This document shows positions 4,378-20,185 of a DNA stretch of 20,185 bases, in pieces; position 1 is the first letter of the stretch, and the number at the start of each line of letters is the position of its first letter. A program made the translations under genes and the position numbers. Source of the DNA: a virus; IMG/VR virus record IMGVR_UViG_3300044645_003274, positions 1 through 20,185 of that record. One strand, written 5' to 3'. The notes beneath the pieces are model-generated. The model saw only the letters and a program-made list of their open reading frames with translations. It ran no database searches and was not told the DNA's origin.

Positions 4378-4397
4378 GGGCGAAACGGGGAGGTGTT

Positions 4398-4408
4398 GCC
4401 AGGCTAGG
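4398..4408 (-). promoter_or_regulatory. CCTAGCCTGGC element ahead of the leftmost minus-strand unit
   Basis: On the minus strand this site reads CCTAGCCTGGC and ends 20 bases before the ATG at 4377. The identical 11-mer occurs at 13464-13474 and 14726-14736, with variants at 9621-9631 and 17682-17692. TAGCCT could act as a -10 hexamer; an operator or leader element is equally possible. The function is inferred from recurrence and position only. Confidence 0.45.
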
Positions 4409-9275: not shown

Positions 9276-9297
9276 AAGGGGCCTTTCAGGGCCCCTT
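9276..9297. terminator. Hairpin terminator shared by the plus operon and the HNH gene
   Basis: AAGGGGCC at 9276-9283 and GGCCCCTT at 9290-9297 form a perfect eight-base stem with a six-base loop, followed on the plus strand by TCTCATT. On the minus strand the stop codon of the HNH gene (9286-9288) sits inside the loop. It lies between convergent transcription units and can serve both, though the T-tract is short. Confidence 0.65.
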
Positions 9298-9603
9298 TCT
9301 CATTCCGCCACTGTTATTGCCCGCCACCCACTCCAGCAGCCGCTGTTCCCTGAAGGCTGTCCAGCCGAGCCGTGGTCGCCACCATTGCAAAACCTCCTGG
9401 CTCCCCTTGCTTCCGTTGCAGGCCAGGCAGGCCGGTACGCAGTTTTCACGAACTGTGGGGCCGCCCTGGCTGCGGGGGATCACGTGATCGAGGGATTGAG
9501 CGGTGGCGCCGCAGTAGGCGCACTGGCCGCCCCAGGCTTCGCGGATGCTGCCATGCCATCGGCGCTTTGTGACCAGCTCCGTCTCAACGATCAGGGCCTG
9601 CAT
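9286..9603 (-). CDS. HNH endonuclease
   Basis: A 105-residue HNH nuclease. CAYC at 28-31 and CLAC at 59-62 form the zinc-binding knuckles, [10 protein letters not shown] at 39-48 gives the catalytic His, and N54 and N63 complete the motif. HNH proteins beside terminase and portal genes are known in HK97-like phages, where they assist cos cleavage and packaging; a homing nuclease is the alternative. The position between portal/minor-head genes and the rest of the head cluster, in the same orientation, favours the packaging role. The start is ATG 9603, preceded at 17 bases by the TTTAGCCTGGC element. It ends inside a bidirectional terminator hairpin and has no neighbour within coupling distance, so it may be transcribed alone. 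Confidence 0.88.
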
Positions 9604-9620: not shown

Positions 9621-9631
9621 GCCAGGCTAAA
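9621..9631 (-). promoter_or_regulatory. TTTAGCCTGGC element ahead of the HNH gene
   Basis: This is a two-base variant of the CCTAGCCTGGC element, ending 17 bases before ATG 9603. Further upstream, CTGGCCAGGG precedes the TAGCCT core by exactly 14 bases. The same ten bases at the same distance occur at the site near 14726. Together these suggest a two-part element, but a functional assignment is inference. Confidence 0.45.
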
Positions 9632-9897: not shown

Positions 9898-11427
9898 TCA
9901 GAGCTCGGCCACCTCGCGCACGATGGAGTCGTAGGCGGCTTGGGCTGCTGAATCCAGCCAGCCCCGCCTGGGGCACCACACCGGATCGCCTGTAGGCCAG
10001 GGCCTAGCGGCCAGGTTCAGCGGATCCTCACCCCCCAGCCCTTGGCGGGGCACGGATTGGGGCCGCTGTTTGCGCTCCATCAGCGGGTAATCGCGAGGGC
10101 TGAGGCGCTCATCGCCCGCACCACCCACCGGCCGCAATTTGGCACCCTTGCCATTGGCCCGGAAGAAATGGGCCAGGGTGCTCTTGCTATGGCGCTTGGC
10201 CTGGGCCTCCCACCGCTCGGCTGGTTTATCCGCCAGGTCGTTTTCGATCACCAGCGATTCCAGGCTCACCGGTGTTTCCTGGCAGCGGCAGTTGGGGTGA
10301 ATCGGGCTCTTCACTGAGCCGATGTAGTACAGGCAGCCGGAGCGGGGGGCGCAGAACTCACAGGTGCGCTCGTCCAACGTGGCCATGTACTGCACAAAGC
10401 CCACCCTCAATTTGCGCCAGCAGCGCTCTTGGGCTTCGCCGGAGGCCATCAGGGTTTCGGTGCGGGCGATGGTTTCCGCCCGATTTTGAAACGCCTCGTT
10501 GATCGTCGGGATCCGTTCTTTCAGATTTTTTGCCAGGGTTTTGGGGTCCGGACCCCGGGCCATTTGGCGGGCGGTCTCAAACGACACGCTCTCCCCCCAC
10601 TTGCCCCACCATTTGGCGTAATAGTGTTTCGCCGCGGCCACGTGTTGATCCGTCGCTGCATCCCGCTCCCGGCGGTAGTTTTCTGATAGGCCTTTGAAAT
10701 CCCGCTCGGCGGCCACCACCGCCCCGGAGAGATCAAAGAGGCGCGTCAGCCGCTGGCCCCCCTGATACTGGCGATCGGGGCCGATGCCAGGGCCTCCGCT
10801 CGCCAGGGGCCCTGTGGGGCCGGTGGCCGGGGCTGGGGCGGTGGGCCGCCTGCCGGTGGGGCTGATGCCACCACCAATCAGAGGCCCCGATGGAGACTGG
10901 GGGGCAGTACCAGGCAGCGCTGGCGATGCTGGCGCCGCCGCCGCTGCCTCCTGGCCTGGCAGTTGGCGGATGGTGCCATCGGGATCGAGCTGGACCATGG
11001 CCGGGGCCAGATCTGCCTGAATCAGCTGCAGTCCGTAATTGGTGCCCAGGTCCTGGGCCTGATCGAACAGCTGGCGCAGCTCCCCGTTCAATCGCTCCAG
11101 CCGCTCGGGGCTGAGCGGCACGGCATTGAGCACCACCATCAAATCTTGAATCAGCTGGGGCTGCAGCAGCAGCCCTGCCTGGTTTTTTTGCAACGGCTCA
11201 ATGGGAACCGGCCCTTCTGGTGTGCTGCCCAGAAAAGCACCGGGGCTGTTGGCGGGGTTGTAGTCGGGCTGATCGGCAGCCTTCTCCAGCAGCTCAAACA
11301 CCCGCGCCACGGTATCCCTCAGCGCTGCTTCAAAAATGCGGCCGATGCGCTGGATTGCTGGGTCTTCCAGGCCCCGCAAAGCCTCGCTGAGCTGTTCGGC
11401 CAGCTGTTCGCGGCGATCAATTCCCAT
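9898..11427 (-). CDS. Mu F/SPP1 gp7-type minor head (head morphogenesis) protein
   Basis: A 509-residue protein whose C-terminal half holds the Phage_Mu_F domain (about 250-390): RAETIARTETLMASGEAQER at 316-335, MATLDERTCEFCAPRSG at 348-364 and PIHPNCRCQETP at 375-386. The CEFC and HPNCRC cysteines and histidine are the expected zinc-binding set. These proteins sit near the portal inside the procapsid and can be injected with the DNA. Residues 155-225 are a long Pro/Ala/Gly-rich linker, and the N-terminal 145 residues are helical. ATG 11427 overlaps the portal stop by 11 bases, the usual portal-then-gp7 order. The 115 residues after the Mu F domain are basic and Trp/Pro-rich and may be a virion-specific extension. 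Confidence 0.9.
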   Translation of the reverse strand: MGIDRREQLAEQLSEALRGLEDPAIQRIGRIFEAALRDTVARVFELLEKAADQPDYNPANSPGAFLGSTPEGPVPIEPLQKNQAGLLLQPQLIQDLMVVLNAVPLSPERLERLNGELRQLFDQAQDLGTNYGLQLIQADLAPAMVQLDPDGTIRQLPGQEAAAAAPASPALPGTAPQSPSGPLIGGGISPTGRRPTAPAPATGPTGPLASGGPGIGPDRQYQGGQRLTRLFDLSGAVVAAERDFKGLSENYRRERDAATDQHVAAAKHYYAKWWGKWGESVSFETARQMARGPDPKTLAKNLKERIPTINEAFQNRAETIARTETLMASGEAQERCWRKLRVGFVQYMATLDERTCEFCAPRSGCLYYIGSVKSPIHPNCRCQETPVSLESLVIENDLADKPAERWEAQAKRHSKSTLAHFFRANGKGAKLRPVGGAGDERLSPRDYPLMERKQRPQSVPRQGLGGEDPLNLAARPWPTGDPVWCPRRGWLDSAAQAAYDSIVREVAEL

Positions 11428-13447
11428 AGCTGTCGCACCTCACACCCATGGCGATCAAATCGAGTCCATCCAGCCGCCTCACCCGGGCGCTGGCCCCTGC
11501 CGCGGTGGTCACCAGCTCGGCAGCGTTCACACCCACCACCGCACACCACTGCCCGCCAGCTCCCAGCACCTCCCACAGCCCCTCGCTGTCAAATCCCACC
11601 GCTGCATTCAGCCCAGCAATCGGCTGGCCGTAGGGGCCCACCAGGGCGGCGGAACCATCGGCCCGCACATCCAACGGCACGCCCGCCACCACCCGCCGGC
11701 CGGTGATTCGAGCCCCATCGGCCCGCACGCCGGCCGGCCGGCCGCGGCCTCGCGATCGTGCAGGGCCAGGCTTGGCAATCCGCTGGGCGATGGCCGCAGC
11801 CAGGGCCTGGCCGTCATCCGGGATGGGCTCTTCCTCCGGTGCGGAGGTGTCTTTTTGCTGCTGCTCAACCTCTTCATCGCAGGCGGAGCAACAGCCATCT
11901 TCTCGGGGATCGCTGGCGCCTGCCAGGCCATCACCCCTGGCCGCGGCGGCTTGCTCCTCTGGCGTGAGCTCAGCGGTGCCTGCCGCCGCTGGTGCTGCTG
12001 ATGTTGTGGGTTCAGCCGGGGCATCGCCGCTGGCGGGGTCGCCGCCGGCTGGATCTGCTTCAAGATCACCACCGAAATCAGGTCCGGTGCCCTCATCGGG
12101 CTGGGGGATGGAGCCATCTGGCTCCCGATTAAGCAGGGTGGTCTCCATCGAGAATTTGGCGCCGCTGAATCGGGCCAATGCGACTTCCGTCGGCGTTATC
12201 ACCTGCTCGCGGATATATGCGGTATCGGTGGTTGCTTGCTTGGAGCGCAGCTCGGCCTCCTCTAAATCTGAAAGCGCGAAGGTGGCGTGGAAATCGATTT
12301 TCCAATCTTCTGGCAGCTCCATGGGGGAGGGCCCGCGGGAACAGGCCGCCAGCAACTCGTAAAACTGGCGCAGGGGGCGATCCAGGTGATCCTGCTGCTG
12401 CTGGGCCGTCTCCATTGCAAAAGCGGCATCTTCTGATCGGCCATCAGCACCCAGTCCGGAGGGGGAAGCACCCCAGAGTTTGGTGTGGGGGATGCGGCTG
12501 GCCCCCTGCACCTCCGTTTCCAGCTTGCCGATCACCGTATCGATGCCCCCCAGGGATCGGGTGATCCAGGCAACGTCCTCGCCGTCGGCATCGATGGCAA
12601 TGCCTCCCAACACAGACCGGCATAGGCCGTTTAGTTCCAGCCGGGCCTGAATGGCCGCCTCCTTTCCATTGGCCACCATCTGGCCTAAACCCCTTATTTT
12701 TTGCACAAAAAGGCTGAAATCGTCGAGGATGGCCGATCCGCTTTTTTGTCCGGTTTCATATCGTTTAAACACCTCCCAGAGGCTCTGCAGCACAGACACG
12801 CCCCACCAGTTATTCAGGCTTTTGAGCCTGTGGGGCAGGGGGTCGCCGTCAAAGCGCAGCAAACGGGAACTATGAATTGGCACCCCTATTTCCTTTTCAT
12901 CCATTCCCACTCGCCTCAAATCGTCGTCTTGATATACAACAAATTGATAACGCTCCGGAGCACCCACGCCAGACCAACCAGGGGCGGGCCAGATGCGCCA
13001 GCGATCCATTGCGTACAGGCCCCGGATCGAGCGCAGCCGTTTGGGATCCACGGGCTCGCTGATTGGTAGCCCGTCGTCGAGCAACAGCACAATCACCGCC
13101 CCGCCATGGTGGCGTGCCATGCGCAAGGCCTCGCGCACATGATCTCGAATGCCCAGGCTTTCCCCGGCCGATACCAGTTTGTCGAGGCGCTTTTTTTGGG
13201 CCTCATTCACATCGCCTCCCACGGTGATACCCCAGCCGGACCTGGTGGCCTCACTGGCAACCAGGTCCACCACCCGGCGGCAAAGCCAACTGCTCACGTA
13301 GAGGTTGTTCAGCTCCTCCTCCTGAAGCAAGCGAACCGGAGCTATGGCCGTGTAGCTGGAGCGGTCACGGCTGGTGCCCATGCGCGTCAGCGCATTGATC
13401 AACACGCCATCGTTGCGCTCCTCTGGCAGCAGGGATTGACCGGACAT
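11417..13447 (-). CDS. Phage portal protein, DUF1073 type, with a long C-terminal extension
   Basis: The portal is the ring through which DNA enters and leaves the capsid. The frame may begin at GTG 13459 (680 residues), but ATG 13447 (676) places the CCTAGCCTGGC element 16 bases upstream. Numbering from the GTG, family features are SSWLCRRVVDLVASEATRSG (56-75), MARHHGGAVIVLLLDDG (114-130), an LYAMDRWRIWP segment (148-158) and TKLWGASPSGLGADG at 326-340 with the following Q-rich helix. The portal core ends near 450. An acidic, disordered linker (450-550) contains a CCSAC cluster, and a distinct strand-rich domain (575-680) follows with repeated VRADG motifs. DUF1073 proteins are usually 400-500 residues, so this extension is unusual. 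It lacks the paired HxT motifs of the Acb1 anti-CBASS enzymes found fused to some relatives. Confidence 0.88.
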   Translation of the reverse strand: MSGQSLLPEERNDGVLINALTRMGTSRDRSSYTAIAPVRLLQEEELNNLYVSSWLCRRVVDLVASEATRSGWGITVGGDVNEAQKKRLDKLVSAGESLGIRDHVREALRMARHHGGAVIVLLLDDGLPISEPVDPKRLRSIRGLYAMDRWRIWPAPGWSGVGAPERYQFVVYQDDDLRRVGMDEKEIGVPIHSSRLLRFDGDPLPHRLKSLNNWWGVSVLQSLWEVFKRYETGQKSGSAILDDFSLFVQKIRGLGQMVANGKEAAIQARLELNGLCRSVLGGIAIDADGEDVAWITRSLGGIDTVIGKLETEVQGASRIPHTKLWGASPSGLGADGRSEDAAFAMETAQQQQDHLDRPLRQFYELLAACSRGPSPMELPEDWKIDFHATFALSDLEEAELRSKQATTDTAYIREQVITPTEVALARFSGAKFSMETTLLNREPDGSIPQPDEGTGPDFGGDLEADPAGGDPASGDAPAEPTTSAAPAAAGTAELTPEEQAAAARGDGLAGASDPREDGCCSACDEEVEQQQKDTSAPEEEPIPDDGQALAAAIAQRIAKPGPARSRGRGRPAGVRADGARITGRRVVAGVPLDVRADGSAALVGPYGQPIAGLNAAVGFDSEGLWEVLGAGGQWCAVVGVNAAELVTTAAGASARVRRLDGLDLIAMGVRCDSYGN

Positions 13448-13463
13448 GGGGGATGGCACCTGG

Positions 13464-13474
13464 GCCAGGCTAGG
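13464..13474 (-). promoter_or_regulatory. CCTAGCCTGGC element ahead of the portal gene
   Basis: An exact copy of the 11-mer lies 16 bases before ATG 13447 on the minus strand. A T-rich stretch (GTTTTTATC) lies about 15-24 bases further upstream. The sigma-factor gene begins divergently only 77 bases away, so this site could also sit where portal and sigma transcription meet. Confidence 0.45.
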
Positions 13475-13535
13475 CAGCGGCCAGATAAAAACACCTCAGC
13501 CACTGCTTCATCCTGCAACCGGGATGGTGCGTCGG

Positions 13536-13541
13536 TACATT
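13536..13541 (+). promoter_or_regulatory. Possible -10 box (TACATT) of the sigma-factor gene
   Basis: TACATT lies nine bases before ATG 13551. If it is a -10 box, transcription would start almost at that ATG, giving a leaderless message or favouring the in-frame ATG at 13569 with a short leader. No convincing -35 is visible. The same hexamer precedes the plus-strand operon at 4439. Confidence 0.25.
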
Positions 13542-13550
13542 TAGAAGGCG

Positions 13551-14516
13551 ATGCACTGCGGATCGGCCATGGCTCAACGGCGGCTGCCCACCGTGGTGGA
13601 CTCGATCCTGAACAGCCTGGAGCATTATCCAGTGCCAACGGCTACAGAACAAATTGAGTACGGACGCGCCGTTCGCGCCTGGCAGGACTGGTCCGGAGGC
13701 CCGGATGCAGCGCCTCCCCGCGTGAGGCGATTTGGGCTCAAGGGCCGGGAACGTCTGGTGACCGGCAACCTGCGACTGGTAGTCAACGTGGCCAAAAAAT
13801 ACCAATCACGAGGGATACCACTGGAGGACCTTATCCAGGAGGGCTCGCTGGGCCTGACCACGGCAGCCGAAAAATACGACCCCGGCAGGGGCTACATGTT
13901 TTCCACCTATTCGTATTGGTGGGTAAAGCAGCGGATCCTGCGTTATGTAATTGATAAGGCCAGCCTGATTCGGGTGCCAGGCAGCACGAATGACGACCTG
14001 TTCAAGGTCAGGCGACAGCTGGACGGATGTTCCGGGCAGCGCAGCGATAAAGAGCTGTTGGTGGCGGCCGGGCTCAAGGAGCTGCCTGACACCATGGTGC
14101 GGCTCCGCGATGCAATGCGGGCCAGGGCATGCGGTAGTACCTCGGTACTGCTGCCCAGTGGTGGCGGCTGCATTGAGGATTTGCAGGCCAGCCCAACAGG
14201 TGGGAAGGACGATCAATACGAAGCGCTGGAACGGGCCGAGCGACAGGCACTGGTGTGCAAATTGCTGGCGGAGCTGCCAGATAACGAACGCCAGGTATGG
14301 GAGCTGCGAGTGGTGGAGGGGGTGCCCCGAGTCGAGGTGGCCCAGATCCTGAATATTTCGGTGAGCGCGGTGGGAGAACTCAAGCGCCGCGCCATAGCTC
14401 ACCTGCAGGCATTGGTAGCCCAGCAGGATGCCGGCTTGCAGGTGGGCTATGGCGCGGCGCTGGCTCCAGTGCCGGCAGCCTGCCAGCAATTGCAGCTCTC
14501 ATTGCTGCCTGGCTAG
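13551..14516 (+). CDS. Sigma-70 family sigma factor (group 2-like), phage-encoded
   Basis: The protein would direct RNA polymerase to a set of promoters. Region 1.2 is at about 12-45. Region 2 spans 66-135 with VTGNLRLVVNVAKKYQSRG, PLEDLIQEGSLGL, and FSTYSYWWVKQRILRYVI at 117-134. Region 3 (136-215) is loosely conserved. Region 4 spans 228-288 with the helix-turn-helix VPRVEVAQILNISVSAVGEL. Aligned by eye with E. coli sigma-70, the -10-contacting Q437 is kept (Q127) but T440 is replaced by L130, and the basic residues of region 2.4 are altered, suggesting changed promoter specificity. It is divergent from the portal gene and surrounded by structural genes. The last 35 residues are an uncharged Ala/Leu/Gln tail. 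ATG 13569 is an alternative start. A host-derived acquisition is likely. Confidence 0.9.
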   Translation: MHCGSAMAQRRLPTVVDSILNSLEHYPVPTATEQIEYGRAVRAWQDWSGGPDAAPPRVRRFGLKGRERLVTGNLRLVVNVAKKYQSRGIPLEDLIQEGSLGLTTAAEKYDPGRGYMFSTYSYWWVKQRILRYVIDKASLIRVPGSTNDDLFKVRRQLDGCSGQRSDKELLVAAGLKELPDTMVRLRDAMRARACGSTSVLLPSGGGCIEDLQASPTGGKDDQYEALERAERQALVCKLLAELPDNERQVWELRVVEGVPRVEVAQILNISVSAVGELKRRAIAHLQALVAQQDAGLQVGYGAALAPVPAACQQLQLSLLPG

Positions 14517-14705
14517 CGGCTTGGCTAGCCAGGCCCGATTCACGTGCCGGCTCTGGCTCCGGTATCGAGCCCTGCGGCGGCCAGAGCCGGCGGCCAGAGC
14601 CAGGGCCCGATTTCGCAGCGACAGCCGGGCAGGTCGATGCCAGCTCCAAAAGCGGCTGGCGCAATACAAAATCCACAACACCATGATTGCCGCAGTGACC
14701 TGCAC
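14499..14705 (-). CDS. Possible small membrane protein (68 aa)
   Basis: A GTG at 14705 opens a frame whose residues 3-20 form a hydrophobic helix (VTAAIMVLWILYCASRFW), followed by a strongly basic, Arg-rich tail. The CCTAGCCTGGC element lies 20 bases upstream, the same spacing as for established minus-strand genes. Against it: the tail is encoded by inverted-repeat DNA, and its end overlaps the sigma gene antisense. ATG 14718 in another frame is an alternative reading of the same element. Function unknown. Confidence 0.35.
   Translation of the reverse strand: MQVTAAIMVLWILYCASRFWSWHRPARLSLRNRALALAAGSGRRRARYRSQSRHVNRAWLAKPLARQQ
14507..14534. terminator. Perfect 11-base hairpin at the end of the sigma gene
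   Basis: GCCTGGCTAGC at 14507-14517, a six-base loop and GCTAGCCAGGC at 14524-14534 form a perfect stem. The sigma stop codon (14514-14516) is inside the first arm. No T-run follows, so it is either a U-less terminator or a 3'-end stabilising structure. The arms also contain a rearranged form of the TAGCC/CCTGGC bases seen in the recurring element. Confidence 0.5.
14546..14591. repeat. 12-base perfect inverted repeat with 22-base spacer
   Basis: GCCGGCTCTGGC at 14546-14557 and its exact complement GCCAGAGCCGGC at 14580-14591 flank a 22-base spacer. A further partial copy (GGCCAGAGCCAGGGCC) begins directly after. It lies just downstream of the sigma-factor hairpin, so the two could form consecutive stem-loops in a read-through transcript. 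Confidence 0.6.
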
Positions 14706-14725
14706 CTGATTTGCGCATTGGCAGG

Positions 14726-14736
14726 GCCAGGCTAGG
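14726..14736 (-). promoter_or_regulatory. CCTAGCCTGGC element in the sigma downstream region
   Basis: This is the third exact copy of the 11-mer on the minus strand. CTGGCCAGGG lies 14 bases upstream of TAGCCT, exactly as at the HNH site. No confident gene starts downstream; the best candidate is the 68-residue membrane ORF at 14705. If it is a promoter, it would run antisense into the sigma gene. Confidence 0.4.
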
Positions 14737-14898
14737 AAACCCGGTAGTCCCTGGCCAGAAATCGAACGGCTGACCGTGGTTCATTGGCCAACAAAGCCAT
14801 CCAAAACCCTGAGCAGCCCCCATTGGCGTCCACTACCAAGAACGGCCAGGCCAAACATTGCGTTTCGTAAATGAATTTGACCCCACGTCTCGGGGTTA

Positions 14899-14962
14899 CG
14901 TTACGGACGTGCTACCATTTATTCACCGGGGCCGAGGGGTCCCACCACCAACAAAAGAAATG
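14899..14962 (+). promoter_or_regulatory. Duplicated promoter/5' leader block, copy A
   Basis: The block contains an extended -10 (TG-C-TACCAT, with TACCAT at 14913-14918), then ATTTATTCACC, then a hairpin (GGGGCC, loop GAGG, GGTCCC, 14928-14943), and a 16-base CA-rich leader ending at ATG 14960. It matches 19249-19312 on the other strand at roughly nine of ten positions. With the -10 as drawn, transcription would start at about 14925, putting the hairpin at the extreme 5' end of the mRNA. No Shine-Dalgarno sequence is present. Confidence 0.5.
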
Positions 14963-15469
14963 ACCAGTTTCCTCGCCACAATTGAAGCCGCTGCGGTCTC
15001 TGTCGAGACAGCGGCCAGGGCTTCTGCCCCTCACCTGCAAACGGTTGCCCGCGCCGATTGGGGCCAGCACCTGAAGGCCGCGGCCGAGCGCACCCTGCCG
15101 GTGATCGCCGCCATCTGGCTGGCCGTCGAGCTCGCCGGTGCCCTCGTGCTGGGCACCTGGCAGGCAGGCCGCGCCACCCGCCTGGCGGTGGAGGCGGTCA
15201 ACAATTGGCTGGCCGCCATCGCCGGGGATCTGGCCGATCCCACCCGGCACCAGCAGGAGGCTGAACAGCCAGCCGAGCAGCCAGCCGAGCAGCAGCCAAC
15301 CGCACCAGTGGCGCCCACAGCCCCAGCAACCCCCCATCTGCCGGTGTTGGCCCCTGCCCCTCGCCGTCGTTTGTCCCTGTCCGGCTGGCTCCAGGCTGAT
15401 GGCTGGGATGCCGACGACGTGGCTGCCCTGGTGCGCCGCCGCCCGCACCCCCAGGGCATAGCGGCCTGA
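14960..15469 (+). CDS. Membrane-anchored hypothetical protein with Pro/Gln-rich linker (169 aa)
   Basis: ATG 14960 is chosen because the codons upstream are shared DNA with the 5' region of an unrelated gene, so they are leader, not protein. Residues 1-44 are helical and Ala-rich, a hydrophobic segment spans about 45-66 (TLPVIAAIWLAVELAGALVL), and a second amphipathic helix follows (AVEAVNNWLAAIAGDL). Residues 95-135 are a low-complexity linker (AEQPAEQPAEQQP, then Pro/Thr/Ala). The C-terminus is a small basic domain with WLQADGWDADDVAALVRRR, which reads like a short helical DNA- or protein-binding motif. No family is recognised. It is convergent with TerL and followed by a GGGGCCCC hairpin. 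Confidence 0.6.
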   Translation: MTSFLATIEAAAVSVETAARASAPHLQTVARADWGQHLKAAAERTLPVIAAIWLAVELAGALVLGTWQAGRATRLAVEAVNNWLAAIAGDLADPTRHQQEAEQPAEQPAEQQPTAPVAPTAPATPHLPVLAPAPRRRLSLSGWLQADGWDADDVAALVRRRPHPQGIAA

Positions 15470-15743: not shown

Positions 15744-15780
15744 CCGCTAAATCATTGTGATCCAGCTGTTCATTAGCGGC
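15743..15780. terminator. Inverted repeat at the TerL/plus-gene junction
   Basis: GCCGCTAA at 15743-15750 and TTAGCGGC at 15773-15780 are perfect eight-base arms with a 22-base loop. The last base of one stop codon and the whole TerL stop lie within the first arm. There is no T-run. The position between convergent genes suits a transcript-end structure. Confidence 0.4.
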
Positions 15781-17210
15781 CTGATCCTGGCGCCAGCATG
15801 CCCGGCCATGGCCAGTGCCATTACCGCGTCATCGTGGTGACCTGGGGCGGCTTTGCGGTCGCCCTTTTCTGTTTGGCGAAAATTGCGCATCTGCTGGCCC
15901 ACGTAGCTGTTGGGGGGAATCGTGAGCTCGCCCTGCTCTAGCAGCAGCACCAGCCGATCGCTCATCATGATTTTGCTTGGCCCGGATGTGTAAACCTCTT
16001 CCAGTTCGGTGCCTGGCCGCAGCAGACACAGAGCCTCCCCAACTGCTGCCCCAACCCCGTTTTTTTCCACCACCACCAGAGTGGGCTGATATTCATCAAT
16101 CAGCCTGGCGCAGCGCTGCAGGCCGTAATCCCGGCTGCAGCCGGCTTCGTTGAAGCCGGCCACCACCCGCCAGGGACTCGCCGATACATCCAGCACCAGG
16201 CCGCAGAAGGCATCGCCACCGCCGCCGTTCGGATCAATGCCCAGCACATAGCTATGGCCCCAGGTAGGTGCATCCCAGCCCCCTGCGGCCTCTGCCAGCT
16301 CGATCAGATCGTGAGCGTATATTTCGTAGTCGGATGCGGTGAAGTCGAGTTCGTATTCACTGCGCCATTGCTGTTCTGTCAGCTGGCGTTTGCGGCGGGT
16401 TTTCTCCGCCCAATCTGGATCCTGACTATATACTGGGTGCTGGGAATAATGAATGCAAACTTTGGCGTATTGATTGTCGGGAGAGATGCGCAGCCTAGGG
16501 ATGCCATTAACCCCCATGGGCGTGGGATCCACCACCACCTCACCGTGGTCTTCGTGCCAATGGTCTGAGAAGGTGCCGCTGCGGCCATTTGGCGTGGTAA
16601 TCCATAGATGGCGGGCCATGTCTTCCAACATCGAGGTGGAGGGCAGTGCGCCTTGCTCGATGCCGCTCAACCTGGTGATGTAGGCGGCTTCGTCAAACAG
16701 GATTGAGGCGGCAGACGGGATTCCCCTGGCAGCCCGCTCGGTGGGCGGCAAAAAATGCAACGCGCCAAAGCCGTCAAAGACCAGTTTCCTTGCGGATTCT
16801 TTGGCAAACTTCGGGCATCGATCGCGGAGCGAGGCCGCCTGCCCTTTGATTCTGGCTGCCAACTCGCTGGCGTCATCGCCAGTTTTGCTGAACGCCACCC
16901 CAGTCCAGGCCGGCCGGCGGCAGGCTTGGCAAAATTTGTAGTTGATTACCGTTTCAGAAATGCCAGTTTGCCGGCTCTTCAGTACATAGACGTTTTGCAC
17001 CTTGCGGTGTATTTTTATCAGCTCCCGCTGTGCAGCAAACGGTATAAAAGGGATGTACTTGCCGGCAGAGGCAATCTTGGTTTGCGCCGCAAAATCTGGC
17101 CACTTCCCAGGCAGTGAATCCCATGGGTTGGCCTTGGCTGGGCCACCCACCAGCGGATCCCGTGAATACCAATCAACGATGCTGGGCGGCCGAACAATCA
17201 GGGATGTCAT
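15747..17210 (-). CDS. terL: Terminase large subunit
   Basis: The motor and nuclease that packages phage DNA into the procapsid. The 487-residue protein has an N-terminal ATPase with a variant Walker A at about 77-85 (LKSRQTGIS), Walker B with catalytic Glu at about 169-175 (SILFDEAA) and coupling motif III at 204-212 (ITTPNGRSG). The RNase H-like nuclease has its acidic triad at D326 (GIDPNGGGGD), E382 (VVVEKNGVG) and D460/D461 (HHDDAVMALAMA). All key residues are present, so it should be active. ATG 17210 follows the TerS stop by two bases, in the usual TerS-TerL order. No inteins or breaks are seen. It is convergent with the plus-strand gene at 15528. Confidence 0.95.
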   Translation of the reverse strand: MTSLIVRPPSIVDWYSRDPLVGGPAKANPWDSLPGKWPDFAAQTKIASAGKYIPFIPFAAQRELIKIHRKVQNVYVLKSRQTGISETVINYKFCQACRRPAWTGVAFSKTGDDASELAARIKGQAASLRDRCPKFAKESARKLVFDGFGALHFLPPTERAARGIPSAASILFDEAAYITRLSGIEQGALPSTSMLEDMARHLWITTPNGRSGTFSDHWHEDHGEVVVDPTPMGVNGIPRLRISPDNQYAKVCIHYSQHPVYSQDPDWAEKTRRKRQLTEQQWRSEYELDFTASDYEIYAHDLIELAEAAGGWDAPTWGHSYVLGIDPNGGGGDAFCGLVLDVSASPWRVVAGFNEAGCSRDYGLQRCARLIDEYQPTLVVVEKNGVGAAVGEALCLLRPGTELEEVYTSGPSKIMMSDRLVLLLEQGELTIPPNSYVGQQMRNFRQTEKGDRKAAPGHHDDAVMALAMAGHAGARIRPLMNSWITMI

Positions 17211-17212
17211 TG

Positions 17213-17665
17213 CTAATCAAAATCCTCAGCCGGGTCGATAACAGCTGCCTCTCGGCTCTGCTGGTTGGCCGCAACAGCGTCATCCGGGGCCCGCTCCACA
17301 AACAGGTTTGCCTGCGCCACACAGGCTTGAATCATGGCGCTGGGATTATTCGCTGCCCTGGCAACTTTATAGCTATTTTCTAGGCGATAATACACAATCA
17401 GCGCTATGCGCCGCTTGTCGATGCAGGTAAGCGCTTCTTCAAGGGATTCATACATCTCCTTGATATATTTATTAGCAGTGCGGCGCGGCATTGCCCACTT
17501 CTTTTCGCAATGATCACGCAATTCCAGCGGGCTGCAGCCATTTCTGCAGAGTGTCTGCAGCTCCCGCATTCTGAATATTTTTTCTAACTTTGTTGGCTGG
17601 TTCTTTTTGCCTGGTCTCTTTGAGCCGTCACCCCCCGCAGGTTTTGGCGCAGGGAGTCTGCTCAC
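17213..17665 (-). CDS. Terminase small subunit candidate
   Basis: A 150-residue protein directly upstream of TerL, with the DNA-binding, recognition-subunit position. The N-terminus is Lys/Pro-rich. Residues 27-72 form a helix-turn-helix-like domain (MRELQTLCRNGCSPLELRDH, then WAMPRRTANKYIKEMYES), followed by a long helix (RRIALIVYYRLENSYKVAR, about 85-103) and an oligomerisation-type helical tail ending in acidic residues. No named family is certain by eye; the assignment rests on the position, size and HTH. The start is GTG 17665, with a CCTATCCTGGT variant of the recurring element 16 bases upstream. Recognition of pac or cos DNA is inferred. Confidence 0.75.
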   Translation of the reverse strand: MSRLPAPKPAGGDGSKRPGKKNQPTKLEKIFRMRELQTLCRNGCSPLELRDHCEKKWAMPRRTANKYIKEMYESLEEALTCIDKRRIALIVYYRLENSYKVARAANNPSAMIQACVAQANLFVERAPDDAVAANQQSREAAVIDPAEDFD

Positions 17666-17681
17666 GAATCAATAGCGATTC

Positions 17682-17692
17682 ACCAGGATAGG
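17682..17692 (-). promoter_or_regulatory. CCTATCCTGGT element ahead of the terminase genes
   Basis: A two-base variant of the 11-mer, ending 16 bases before GTG 17665, so the spacing equals that at the portal. TATCCT is closer to a -10 consensus than the TAGCCT of the other copies. This site could drive TerS-TerL separately from the upstream small genes. Confidence 0.4.
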
Positions 17693-17947: not shown

Positions 17948-18238
17948 CTATGCGCCAGTTTGCGGCTTGGCCTTGGCCTTGGCCTTGGCCTTGGCCTTGG
18001 CCTTGGCCTTGGCCTTGGCGACTCTGGCGGCTCGCTCCGCCCGGCCTTCTGTGGTCTGGCTTTGCCAACAAAGGCGGCAGAAAGGGCCTTTGGCGCCGGT
18101 GTGCCGCTTCCCGCAGCTCTGGCAGGTGGGCCGATCCCGCAACGGCCCCAGCCCCTTCTGACGATCGCGCCACCGCTGCATCCTGGCCGCGGCCGTGGGG
18201 TCAGGGGGCATTTGGTGGAGGGATTGGGGTGCCGCCAT
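17948..18238 (-). CDS. Zinc-ribbon protein with Lys-Ala tail (96 aa)
   Basis: A small nucleic-acid-binding candidate. MQRWRDRQKG is followed by a zinc ribbon, CQSC then GPFCRLCW (two CxxC knuckles 17 residues apart), then TEGRAERAAR and a nine-fold Ala-Lys repeat, ending PQTGA. Small ribbon proteins with a CxxCW knuckle followed by T(P)EG are a pattern I associate with cyanobacterial and phage genomes, though I cannot name the family. The frame is chosen over the overlapping Arg-Pro and Gly-Gln readings because only it has the cysteine motif. The Lys-Ala tail resembles histone H1 tails and would bind DNA or RNA non-specifically. ATG 18238 is used; ATG 18211 would cut the overlap with the upstream gene to 11 bases. 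Confidence 0.65.
   Translation of the reverse strand: MAAPQSLHQMPPDPTAAARMQRWRDRQKGLGPLRDRPTCQSCGKRHTGAKGPFCRLCWQSQTTEGRAERAARVAKAKAKAKAKAKAKAKAKPQTGA
17971..18018. repeat. Hexanucleotide microsatellite (CCTTGG)8
   Basis: Eight perfect CCTTGG units with a partial ninth (GCTTGG) at the left. On the minus strand each unit gives Ala-Lys in the zinc-ribbon protein's frame. Slippage would add or remove two residues without a frameshift, so tail length may vary between isolates. Confidence 0.9.
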
Positions 18239-18972: not shown

Positions 18973-19251
18973 TTAGGCGTCTTCACTCCATGGCGCGGCT
19001 TCAAGTGCGTCGAGGATCGCTTCCTCGTCAAACAGAAACCAATGCGCCCGGTGGAGCAGAGCAGATGCTGCGGTGTTTTCGGGAACCATCCCAGCAAAAA
19101 AATTGTGGATGAAGGCTTCGACTTGTCCGCGAGGCTTTCCGCTGGTTAGCGCCAGGAGTGCGTCTCTGCTGCCCTCTTTCTTCTCAAGCTGGAAATAGAA
19201 CGCTTCTGTGTAGTCGTATCGGGCTCCAGAGTAGGCAGCTTCGTAATTCAT
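18973..19251 (-). CDS. Hypothetical protein (92 aa)
   Basis: ATG 19251 is chosen; the longer frame reading back to 19413 runs through the duplicated promoter/leader block and into the ParB-domain gene, so those codons are not coding. The product is aromatic at the N-terminus (MNYEAAYSGARYDYTEAFYF) and then helical (QVEAFIHNFFAGMV, then HRAHWFLFDEEAILDALEAA), with an acidic end. No family is recognised. It follows copy B of the 5' leader block and is the first gene of the run 19251-17703. Confidence 0.6.
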   Translation of the reverse strand: MNYEAAYSGARYDYTEAFYFQLEKKEGSRDALLALTSGKPRGQVEAFIHNFFAGMVPENTAASALLHRAHWFLFDEEAILDALEAAPWSEDA

Positions 19252-19312
19252 TTCGTTGTTGGGTTGTGGGGCCCCTCGGCCCCGGTGCATAAATGGTAGC
19301 ACGCCCGTAACG
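19249..19312 (-). promoter_or_regulatory. Duplicated promoter/5' leader block, copy B
   Basis: On the minus strand it holds TG-C-TACCAT (-10 at 19293-19298), ATTTATGCACC, a perfect six-base-pair hairpin (GGGGCC, loop GAGG, GGCCCC, 19268-19283) and a 16-base leader ACAACCCAACAACGAA before ATG 19251. It matches copy A at 14899-14962; the one difference inside the hairpin stem is C here against T there, which keeps pairing through G-U. Confidence 0.5.
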
Positions 19313-19372: not shown

Positions 19373-20113
19373 CTATGCCCTGGGCTGCCGGCGCTGGCGC
19401 TGGCGTTCTCCACGGTCGAGGTAGGCCTCGATCACCAGGGCCAGCCGGCCGGTCAGCTCCGCCGGCTCGGGCAGTGCGGCGGCCAGCTGCACCAGCAGGG
19501 AGCCAAACCGATCGAACTCCTCCTGGGTTGCGAACTGCAGCTTGATCTCAAGCCCTGAATCGGGCTTGCTGGGGGGGGCCGGCGGCTCCGTCTCATCCTC
19601 ATCCACCTGGTCACCGGCCACCAGCGCAGCAAATTCCTCCTCGGAAAACCAGGGGGAGACGTCCAGCTGGGCATCCTCCTCCACCAGCTGGGCAAGCATC
19701 GCCCCGTCAAATTCAGATGTGTCGCTGGTGCGGTTGTCGGCCAGGGCCAGGCTCGTTTTTTCGGTTTCACTCAGATCGAACCGTTGGACGGCAATCAGGG
19801 TGTTCCCATCGCTGGGGATAAACAAAACCCTGTCTATGCCTGCATTTATGGCCGCTTCCGCCGTGCCGTTGCCGGCCAGCACCCGGCGGTTTTCATCAAC
19901 CACGATCGAGCGGGCAGCGCCAAACTCCTCCATCGAGCGGGCCAACATGTCGCGAGAACGGGGCGTGCGGCGGCGGGCATTTTTTCGATCTGGTATCAGC
20001 TTGCTGATCGGCAGTAAAGCCGCCCTGGGGCTGGAGTCTGGGCCGTCCTGGGCGGGGGCTGTGGGCACGATTTCCGCCGTCAATGCGGCGGAAGAGGGGC
20101 GCTTGGGAGGCAT
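19373..20113 (-). CDS. ParB-like nuclease-domain phage protein
   Basis: A 246-residue protein with a ParB N-terminal/sulfiredoxin-fold domain at about 33-130: LLPISKLIPDRKNARRRT, SMEEFGAARSIVVDENRRVL and the nucleotide-binding AGNGTAEAAINAG at 80-92, followed by LSLALADNRTSD-like sequence at about 120-132. The C-terminal part (188-235) carries the common phage extension FATQEEFDRFGSLLVQLA. An acidic Glu/Asp/Pro linker lies at about 165-185. Phage proteins of this kind precede terminase genes, often with a DNA methyltransferase; none is seen here. The function is a DNA-binding or CTP-binding adaptor or nuclease, not settled. ATG 20113 has no ribosome-binding site. A 12-base inverted repeat lies just upstream. 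Confidence 0.85.
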   Translation of the reverse strand: MPPKRPSSAALTAEIVPTAPAQDGPDSSPRAALLPISKLIPDRKNARRRTPRSRDMLARSMEEFGAARSIVVDENRRVLAGNGTAEAAINAGIDRVLFIPSDGNTLIAVQRFDLSETEKTSLALADNRTSDTSEFDGAMLAQLVEEDAQLDVSPWFSEEEFAALVAGDQVDEDETEPPAPPSKPDSGLEIKLQFATQEEFDRFGSLLVQLAAALPEPAELTGRLALVIEAYLDRGERQRQRRQPRA

Positions 20114-20118
20114 CAGGA

Positions 20119-20170
20119 GTTGGGTCGAACGCGCAGCTACAGCTTGCTATAGCTTCTGGTTCGACCCAAC
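20119..20170. repeat. 12-base inverted repeat ahead of the ParB-domain gene
   Basis: GTTGGGTCGAAC at 20119-20130 and GTTCGACCCAAC at 20159-20170 are perfect complements around a 28-base spacer that itself has AGCTA/TAGCT arms and, on the minus strand, a TATAGC hexamer. It begins six bases before ATG 20113, so it is positioned as an operator, a promoter-region palindrome or a partition-type binding site for the ParB-domain protein. Confidence 0.6.
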
Positions 20171-20185
20171 CCCAAATGCCCCGTC

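Follow-up and report, generated by a model that had tools for sequence, protein, structure and literature searches.

In phage T4, gp55 is a late-gene sigma factor whose promoters have a -10-like element and an unconserved -35, and it carries a short C-terminal epitope for the sliding clamp behind a divergent linker (PMC2988020, PMC7892883). The protein is highly diverged, with a region 2 homology domain; the clamp is the phage's own gp45, and the T4 late system also needs the coactivator gp33. In the reviews consulted, T4 and its relatives are the only phages described as having clamp-activated transcription, in which a clamp made by the phage and a highly diverged sigma take part; a search of the full-text literature (subscription journals lay outside its scope) returned no phage sigma with a clamp-binding motif outside that group. 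For the bacterial beta clamp, one consensus at C-termini is QL(S/D)LF (PMC9690074) and another is QLxLxL, as in the C-terminal QLVLGL of E. coli Pol IV (PMC4564189). Sigma factors are also present in 65 of 153 sequenced cyanophages (PMC10452541), those of S-LBS1 and the S-CBS phages being divergent from each other (PMC6157547).

The DNA analysed here, referred to as the window, is an entire IMG/VR record of 20,185 bp. Like S-CBS3 and S-CBS1 (RpsD4 in both), S-LBS1 and KBS-S-2A, it combines a small cyanophage genome with a group 2-like sigma whose gene is on the other strand from the late genes, but those sigmas belong to different clades and lack the GPDxAP insert described below (S-CBS3 and S-LBS1 are about 27-33% identical to the window sigma). 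Cyanobacterial group 2 sigmas (TIGR02997), and among them a picocyanobacterial subfamily with a GP(D/E)xAP insert, share its domain order and insert; they differ in forming a clade separate from the phage sigmas and in lacking a C-terminal clamp motif. The likeness to gp55 would lie in a late-gene role, a -10-like promoter and a clamp-motif tail on a divergent linker. Unlike gp55, the window sigma has regions 1.2 to 4, region 4 included, and its motif fits the bacterial QLxLxL, so that the clamp would be the host's. Its motif is of the same type as that of Pol IV and has the same extreme C-terminal position (PMC4564189), but the cited beta-clamp binders are polymerases and other replication proteins whereas this protein is a sigma. 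On balance, we favour the reading that the window encodes a late sigma tethered to the host clamp and convergent with gp55: it would work like gp55, in an unrelated phage and with no sequence kinship claimed.

The sigma gene and its setting

The gene lies at 13551..14516 on the plus strand and encodes 321 aa; an in-frame ATG at 13569 (MAQRRLPTVV...) is the likelier true start because the sigmas of relatives begin there. Pfam recognizes Sigma70_r2 (E=1.4e-19) and Sigma70_r4 (E=8e-9). In the AF2 model (mean pLDDT 84), regions 1.2, 2, 3 and 4 are each represented by helices and the C-terminal tail is disordered; Foldseek matches the model to sigma-A and sigma-S holoenzyme chains (E from 5e-12 to 1e-10). 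The best NCBIfam subfamily, TIGR02997, gives 142 bits, far below its cut-off of 384.5, and the protein is therefore better called group 2-like than a standard member of the cyanobacterial RpoD/SigA family. It has the group 2 layout, with regions 1.2, 2, 3 and 4 present and region 1.1 absent. Region 1.2 (residues 15-47, 13593..13691) is placed by alignment and AF2 helices, with no separate Pfam match. It is followed, before region 2.1, by the family insert SGGPDAAPPRVRRFG (13692..13736), which also occurs in a host sigma subfamily. Region 2 covers residues 69-133 (13755..13949) and region 4 residues 237-286 (14259..14408). A disordered linker that diverges within the family (residues 294-312, 14430..14486; block pLDDT falling from 70 to 45) leads to the beta-clamp-binding-like motif QLQLSL (residues 313-318, 14487..14504). 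All of these are on the plus strand. An earlier note on this DNA had described a group 2-like sigma running divergently between the portal gene and the terminase side, with Leu at the position of E. coli T440. Both descriptions are borne out: Leu130 occupies that position in the alignment, and the equivalents of Q437 and R441 are retained.

The gene sits between two minus-strand genes, that for a portal protein of the HI1409/Phage_portal_3 type (11417..13447, start about 13447) and that for the terminase large subunit, TerL (15747..17210), and is divergent from the portal gene. The minus strand also carries genes for a Mu-F-like head morphogenesis protein (9898..11427), an HNH endonuclease (9286..9603) and a putative small terminase subunit, TerS (17213..17665), assigned by position and conserved in relatives; the plus strand carries the sigma gene, thyX and small genes. 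Rfam and tRNA scans found nothing. Several repeats were observed as well. A 65-nt inverted repeat (88%) at 14899-14963 and 19248-19312 precedes two small genes, whose leaders have a TTACGG...GCTACCAT stretch and a GGGGCC..GGCCCC hairpin; leaders like these also occur in G002, L196, L102 and G003, which suggests that there is a second class of promoter, perhaps an early one. A 35-nt inverted repeat (TTGGGTCGAAC/GTTCGACCCAA, 20109-20180) before a ParB-like gene is possibly an operator or partition-like site; L008 and L009 have a repeat that resembles it, with a different sequence. A (CTTGGC)n array lies within an ORF at 17966-18025, and in S-LBS1 repeated CCTAACCT/AGGTTGGGCAG units stand upstream of the terminase genes (L375:34237-34641).

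With the portal protein as query, 11 loci were retrieved, with portals 43-98% identical. The sigma is divergent from the portal in all 11 and lies between TerL and portal wherever TerL is present. Near-identical copies (97-99%) aside, the window sigma shares 31-47% identity with full-length sigmas of the family. Against L008, the portal side of the window is 92-100% identical; near the promoter that the two have in common, identity drops to about 0.6, and it does not recover across the sigma and its 3' flank (13425-14850), and the sigma thus lies within a mosaic block. A TerL-based expansion of the set returned mostly unrelated terminases. The sigma-bearing family probably infects freshwater cyanobacteria, with the sigma adjoining capsid genes in the portal relatives of the first scan, and the nearest cellular sigmas point to a picocyanobacterium as host.

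The C-terminal tail and replication

The window sigma ends in QLQLSLLPG after its variable linker, in agreement with the bacterial clamp consensus QLxLxL, a feature that the earlier note does not mention. Relatives end in QLLLV, QLLLA, QLPLDLD (two), QLPLMTA, QLRLAEA, QLVLV or QLVLT, and the tail of L013 has QLSLL; the exceptions are L015, which ends in FLLPLDV, and L101, in which QMTLL is followed by a frameshift-like extension. The pattern Q[LM]x[LM] occurs in the last 22 residues of 10 of the 12 family sigmas. None of 79 cellular cyanobacterial sigmas has it there; it is present in 2 of 60 other phage sigmas and, among the non-sigma genes that these phages carry, in 9 of 353 (Fisher 1e-11 and 6e-13, with related sequences treated as independent). 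A further 39 picocyanobacterial sigmas were also without it. Only 4 of the 12 match a strict regular expression for this short, degenerate motif. Scans with the S-LBS1 and KBS-S-2A sigmas brought up textbook forms in cyanophage sigma groups (EQLSLFAA, GEQLRLF at the very end, QLALFGPLE, GQLALPLV and GQLVLPLT), and the sigmas of these two cultured phages themselves carry QLxL tail motifs. Two motifs around a basic linker are seen in the cultured S-LBS1 itself, in much of the S-LBS1 group and in the family members L012, L016 and L101. The tail trait requires at least nine changes on the sigma tree and was therefore gained or lost repeatedly. In the L013 phage, two other proteins have clamp-like ends, NPDQLTLL (L196:11441-11740) and QQMALF (L196:15248-15913), the latter protein having no PHROG match.

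By its sequence and position the motif looks like a hook for the host beta clamp. DnaN (PF00712) had no match in 16 phage records, most of them fragments, and thus a phage-encoded clamp of the T4 type was not detected; Pol III alpha was found in none of 9 phage records. DNA polymerase A occurs only in G007, an outgroup phage that has no sigma. In the relative G001 the replication initiator is lambda-O-like and the annealing protein Erf-like, and the phage also has a serine recombinase of the phage-integrase type. That these phages use the host replisome is a natural inference from records that are mostly fragments. In the cultured S-LBS1 and KBS-S-2A, the sigma gene is in the replication arm, opposite the late arm. 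Under the reading favoured here, QLQLSL on its flexible linker would tether the sigma to the host beta sliding clamp on replicating phage DNA and would thereby couple late genes to replication, as gp55 and gp45 do in T4.

Alternatively, the protein could be a late sigma that reads the promoter-like element TAGCCTG as a free holoenzyme subunit, its QLxL tail having no part in clamp coupling; the tail might instead bind some other protein of phage or host, for instance, or be a functionless hydrophobic end. Sigma and element are conserved together in the sigma-bearing phages, as this would predict, and the sigmas of S-CBS1 and S-CBS3 manage without the motif; it is absent from that of PSS2 too, and it is thus not essential to all cyanophage sigmas. 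Yet in an otherwise divergent tail only the motif is conserved, sister groups end in the textbook clamp consensus (QLSLF, QLRLF, QLALPL), and the cellular homologues (0 of 79) do without it, all of which makes a tail with no link to the clamp rather unlikely in our judgement.

A promoter-like element before the late genes

The earlier note had also pointed to a repeated TA(G/T)CCTGG element, and this too holds up: it is promoter-like in sequence and conserved ahead of late genes. The window has exactly five copies and each is on the minus strand; 1.25 would be expected, and 20 simulations gave no more than 4. TAGCCTGG stands before the portal gene (13465..13472), 18 nt before the HNH gene (9622..9629) and about 20 nt before an ATG near 4378 (4399..4406), and TATCCTGG stands 17 nt before the putative TerS gene (17683..17690); the fifth copy is considered in the next section. 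The portal leaders of the 11 lineages have TAGCCTGG, TAGCCTGA, TAGCTTGA, TAGCCTTC, TACCCTGA, TACGGTAA or TAACCTGA, 19-29 nt (about 20 nt) upstream of the portal start. Allowing one mismatch at most, TAGCCTGA is present in 9 of these 11 leaders, whereas the best shared 8-mer in shuffled leaders reached a mean of 4.7 and a maximum of 7 (60 sets; 6-mers or two mismatches made such tests uninformative). In the degenerate form TA(G/T)C(C/T)TG(A/G), 13 of 31 copies lie within 60 nt of a same-strand start, a zone that makes up 4.3% of the sequence (binomial 1.6e-10, counting orthologous sites that are not independent). In larger relatives the overall excess is weak (5 against 3.25 and 5 against 3.55 expected), and an unbiased k-mer ranking of the window puts TAGCCTG first at p=1.2e-4 before correction, which is not significant alone given about 1,100 tests. 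The case therefore rests on the position of the element and its conservation across lineages. S-LBS1 shows no excess of TAGCCT; the 24.5-kb stretch L018 has four copies, all on the late strand. GTTCA...TGAAC palindromes occur before several genes in L102 and G003 (L184/L185), and a TGAAC half-site lies 5-6 nt ahead of TAGCCT in some portal promoters; these are possible regulator sites.

Inspection of the portal leaders by eye revealed no conserved -35. The element thus looks like a -10-only promoter, a resemblance to the T4 late type drawn from comparative sequence. Helix strings and alignment indicate a matching change in the sigma: in region 4.2 the canonical -35-reading residues (RERxRQ) are gone from the window protein, whose recognition helix reads ISVSAVGELK, and from those of L008/L009, L010/L011/L015 and L013, while L012, L016 and L101 retain them wholly or mostly. 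This change is more radical than T440L and fits promoters without a -35. In the mechanism proposed here, the sigma would be expressed from the plus-strand arm of the genome, together with thyX and other small genes, and would join the host RNA polymerase core. The holoenzyme would then initiate at TA(G/T)C(C/T)TG(A/G) promoters that lack a -35 and transcribe the packaging and head genes of the minus strand, with the clamp tether making up for the -35 reading that region 4 has lost.

Whether the sigma reads the element is a separate matter. The earlier note took T440L as a sign of changed promoter choice, an idea that does not survive comparison: across the family the Q437 and R441 equivalents are invariant and the T440 position is occupied by L, K, R, S or T, while the -12 T of the portal promoter is invariant, and T440L is therefore no predictor of a different promoter. 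Co-variation of region 2.4 with the promoter was likewise rejected. The window and L008 sigmas are 46-47% identical and their portal promoters are the same (TAGCCTGGCCCAGG), so that no co-variation of promoter and sigma is visible, and the portal element is kept even where sigmas share only 31-47% identity. In addition, G007 has a similar element (TAACCTGA) without any sigma. Of the phage-specific switch that the earlier note had proposed, a phage-specific, syntenic sigma and a conserved element stand; the link between the two stays an inference because of G007.

The same outgroup lends something to a different interpretation, in which the element is an ordinary TAnnnT -10 for the host primary sigma, or a regulator site, and the phage sigma, as an auxiliary gene, acts on host genes to redirect metabolism. 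The portal elements do match TAnnnT, the late promoters of Ma-LMM01 are SigA-like (PMC5780444), and expression of the S-CBS2 and S-CBS3 sigmas altered carbon metabolism in the host (PMC10452541). However, an ordinary -10 does not account well for a fixed GCCTG core and discriminator, an unconserved -35 and a near-unique position before the portal gene, and the sigma is syntenic with head genes in relatives, unlike a metabolic passenger. We regard this interpretation as improbable and retain the clamp-tethered late sigma as the working model, in which the sigma would read the element, its motif would bind the clamp, and its action would be late and coupled to replication.

Control and origin of the sigma

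The fifth copy of the element, TAGCCTGG at 14727..14734 on the minus strand, is downstream of the sigma gene, antisense to it, and points through it toward the portal gene. Its place is conserved (G002 39940, L009 7909, G001 48239), and one may speculate that late transcription could in this way shut the sigma down. Control of the sigma could also be sought in its tail. Clamp-linked proteolysis is known for some proteins, and the clamp-like motif might serve replication-linked control of the sigma itself, by clamp-dependent degradation or sequestration, rather than activation. No degron-like neighbour was recognised by eye, and the T4 precedent is one of activation (PMC7892883), which leaves this a very improbable function for the motif.

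The 12 family sigmas form a single phage-only clade (SH-aLRT 97*; 70 in a broader set), separate from host sigmas in the phylogeny that the earlier note had called for, and the gene is conserved in related phages. One phage clade together with synteny in relatives marks it as a lasting phage gene and no recent passenger. The insert W-x-DW-x-GPDxAP is common to the family sigmas and is found in a picocyanobacterial sigma subfamily as well. This shared GP(D/E)xAP insert makes an old host origin of the phage sigma likely, while the tree does not resolve the origin. Recent capture of the sigma from the host, as a passenger without a phage-specific role, can draw on that host subfamily, whose insert speaks for an ancient host source, but it is scarcely credible given the separate clade (97*), a best identity of 40% to any cellular sigma and synteny held in relatives with portals as little as 43% and as much as 98% identical. 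A TerL scan of contigs from cellular genomes revealed no prophages of this phage clade, and a distant portal (35%) was present in 1 of 350 picocyanobacterial genomes. Tandem pairs of group 2-like sigma genes were observed in the picocyanobacterial L385, L386, L387, L390, L392 and L395-L398, most of them with the GP(D/E)xAP insert.

Taken more broadly, clamp-tethered late transcription may have evolved outside the T4 family, with host-derived sigmas of cyanosiphoviruses repeatedly gaining tails and using the host clamp at promoters without a -35; we consider this proposal evenly balanced between true and false. The clamp-tail idea is testable in the cultured phages S-LBS1 and KBS-S-2A. If true, it would account for the retention of a sigma next to the head genes in these phages, and replication-coupled late expression would be a convergent and perhaps common strategy, reached through group 2 sigmas that exploit the host beta clamp.
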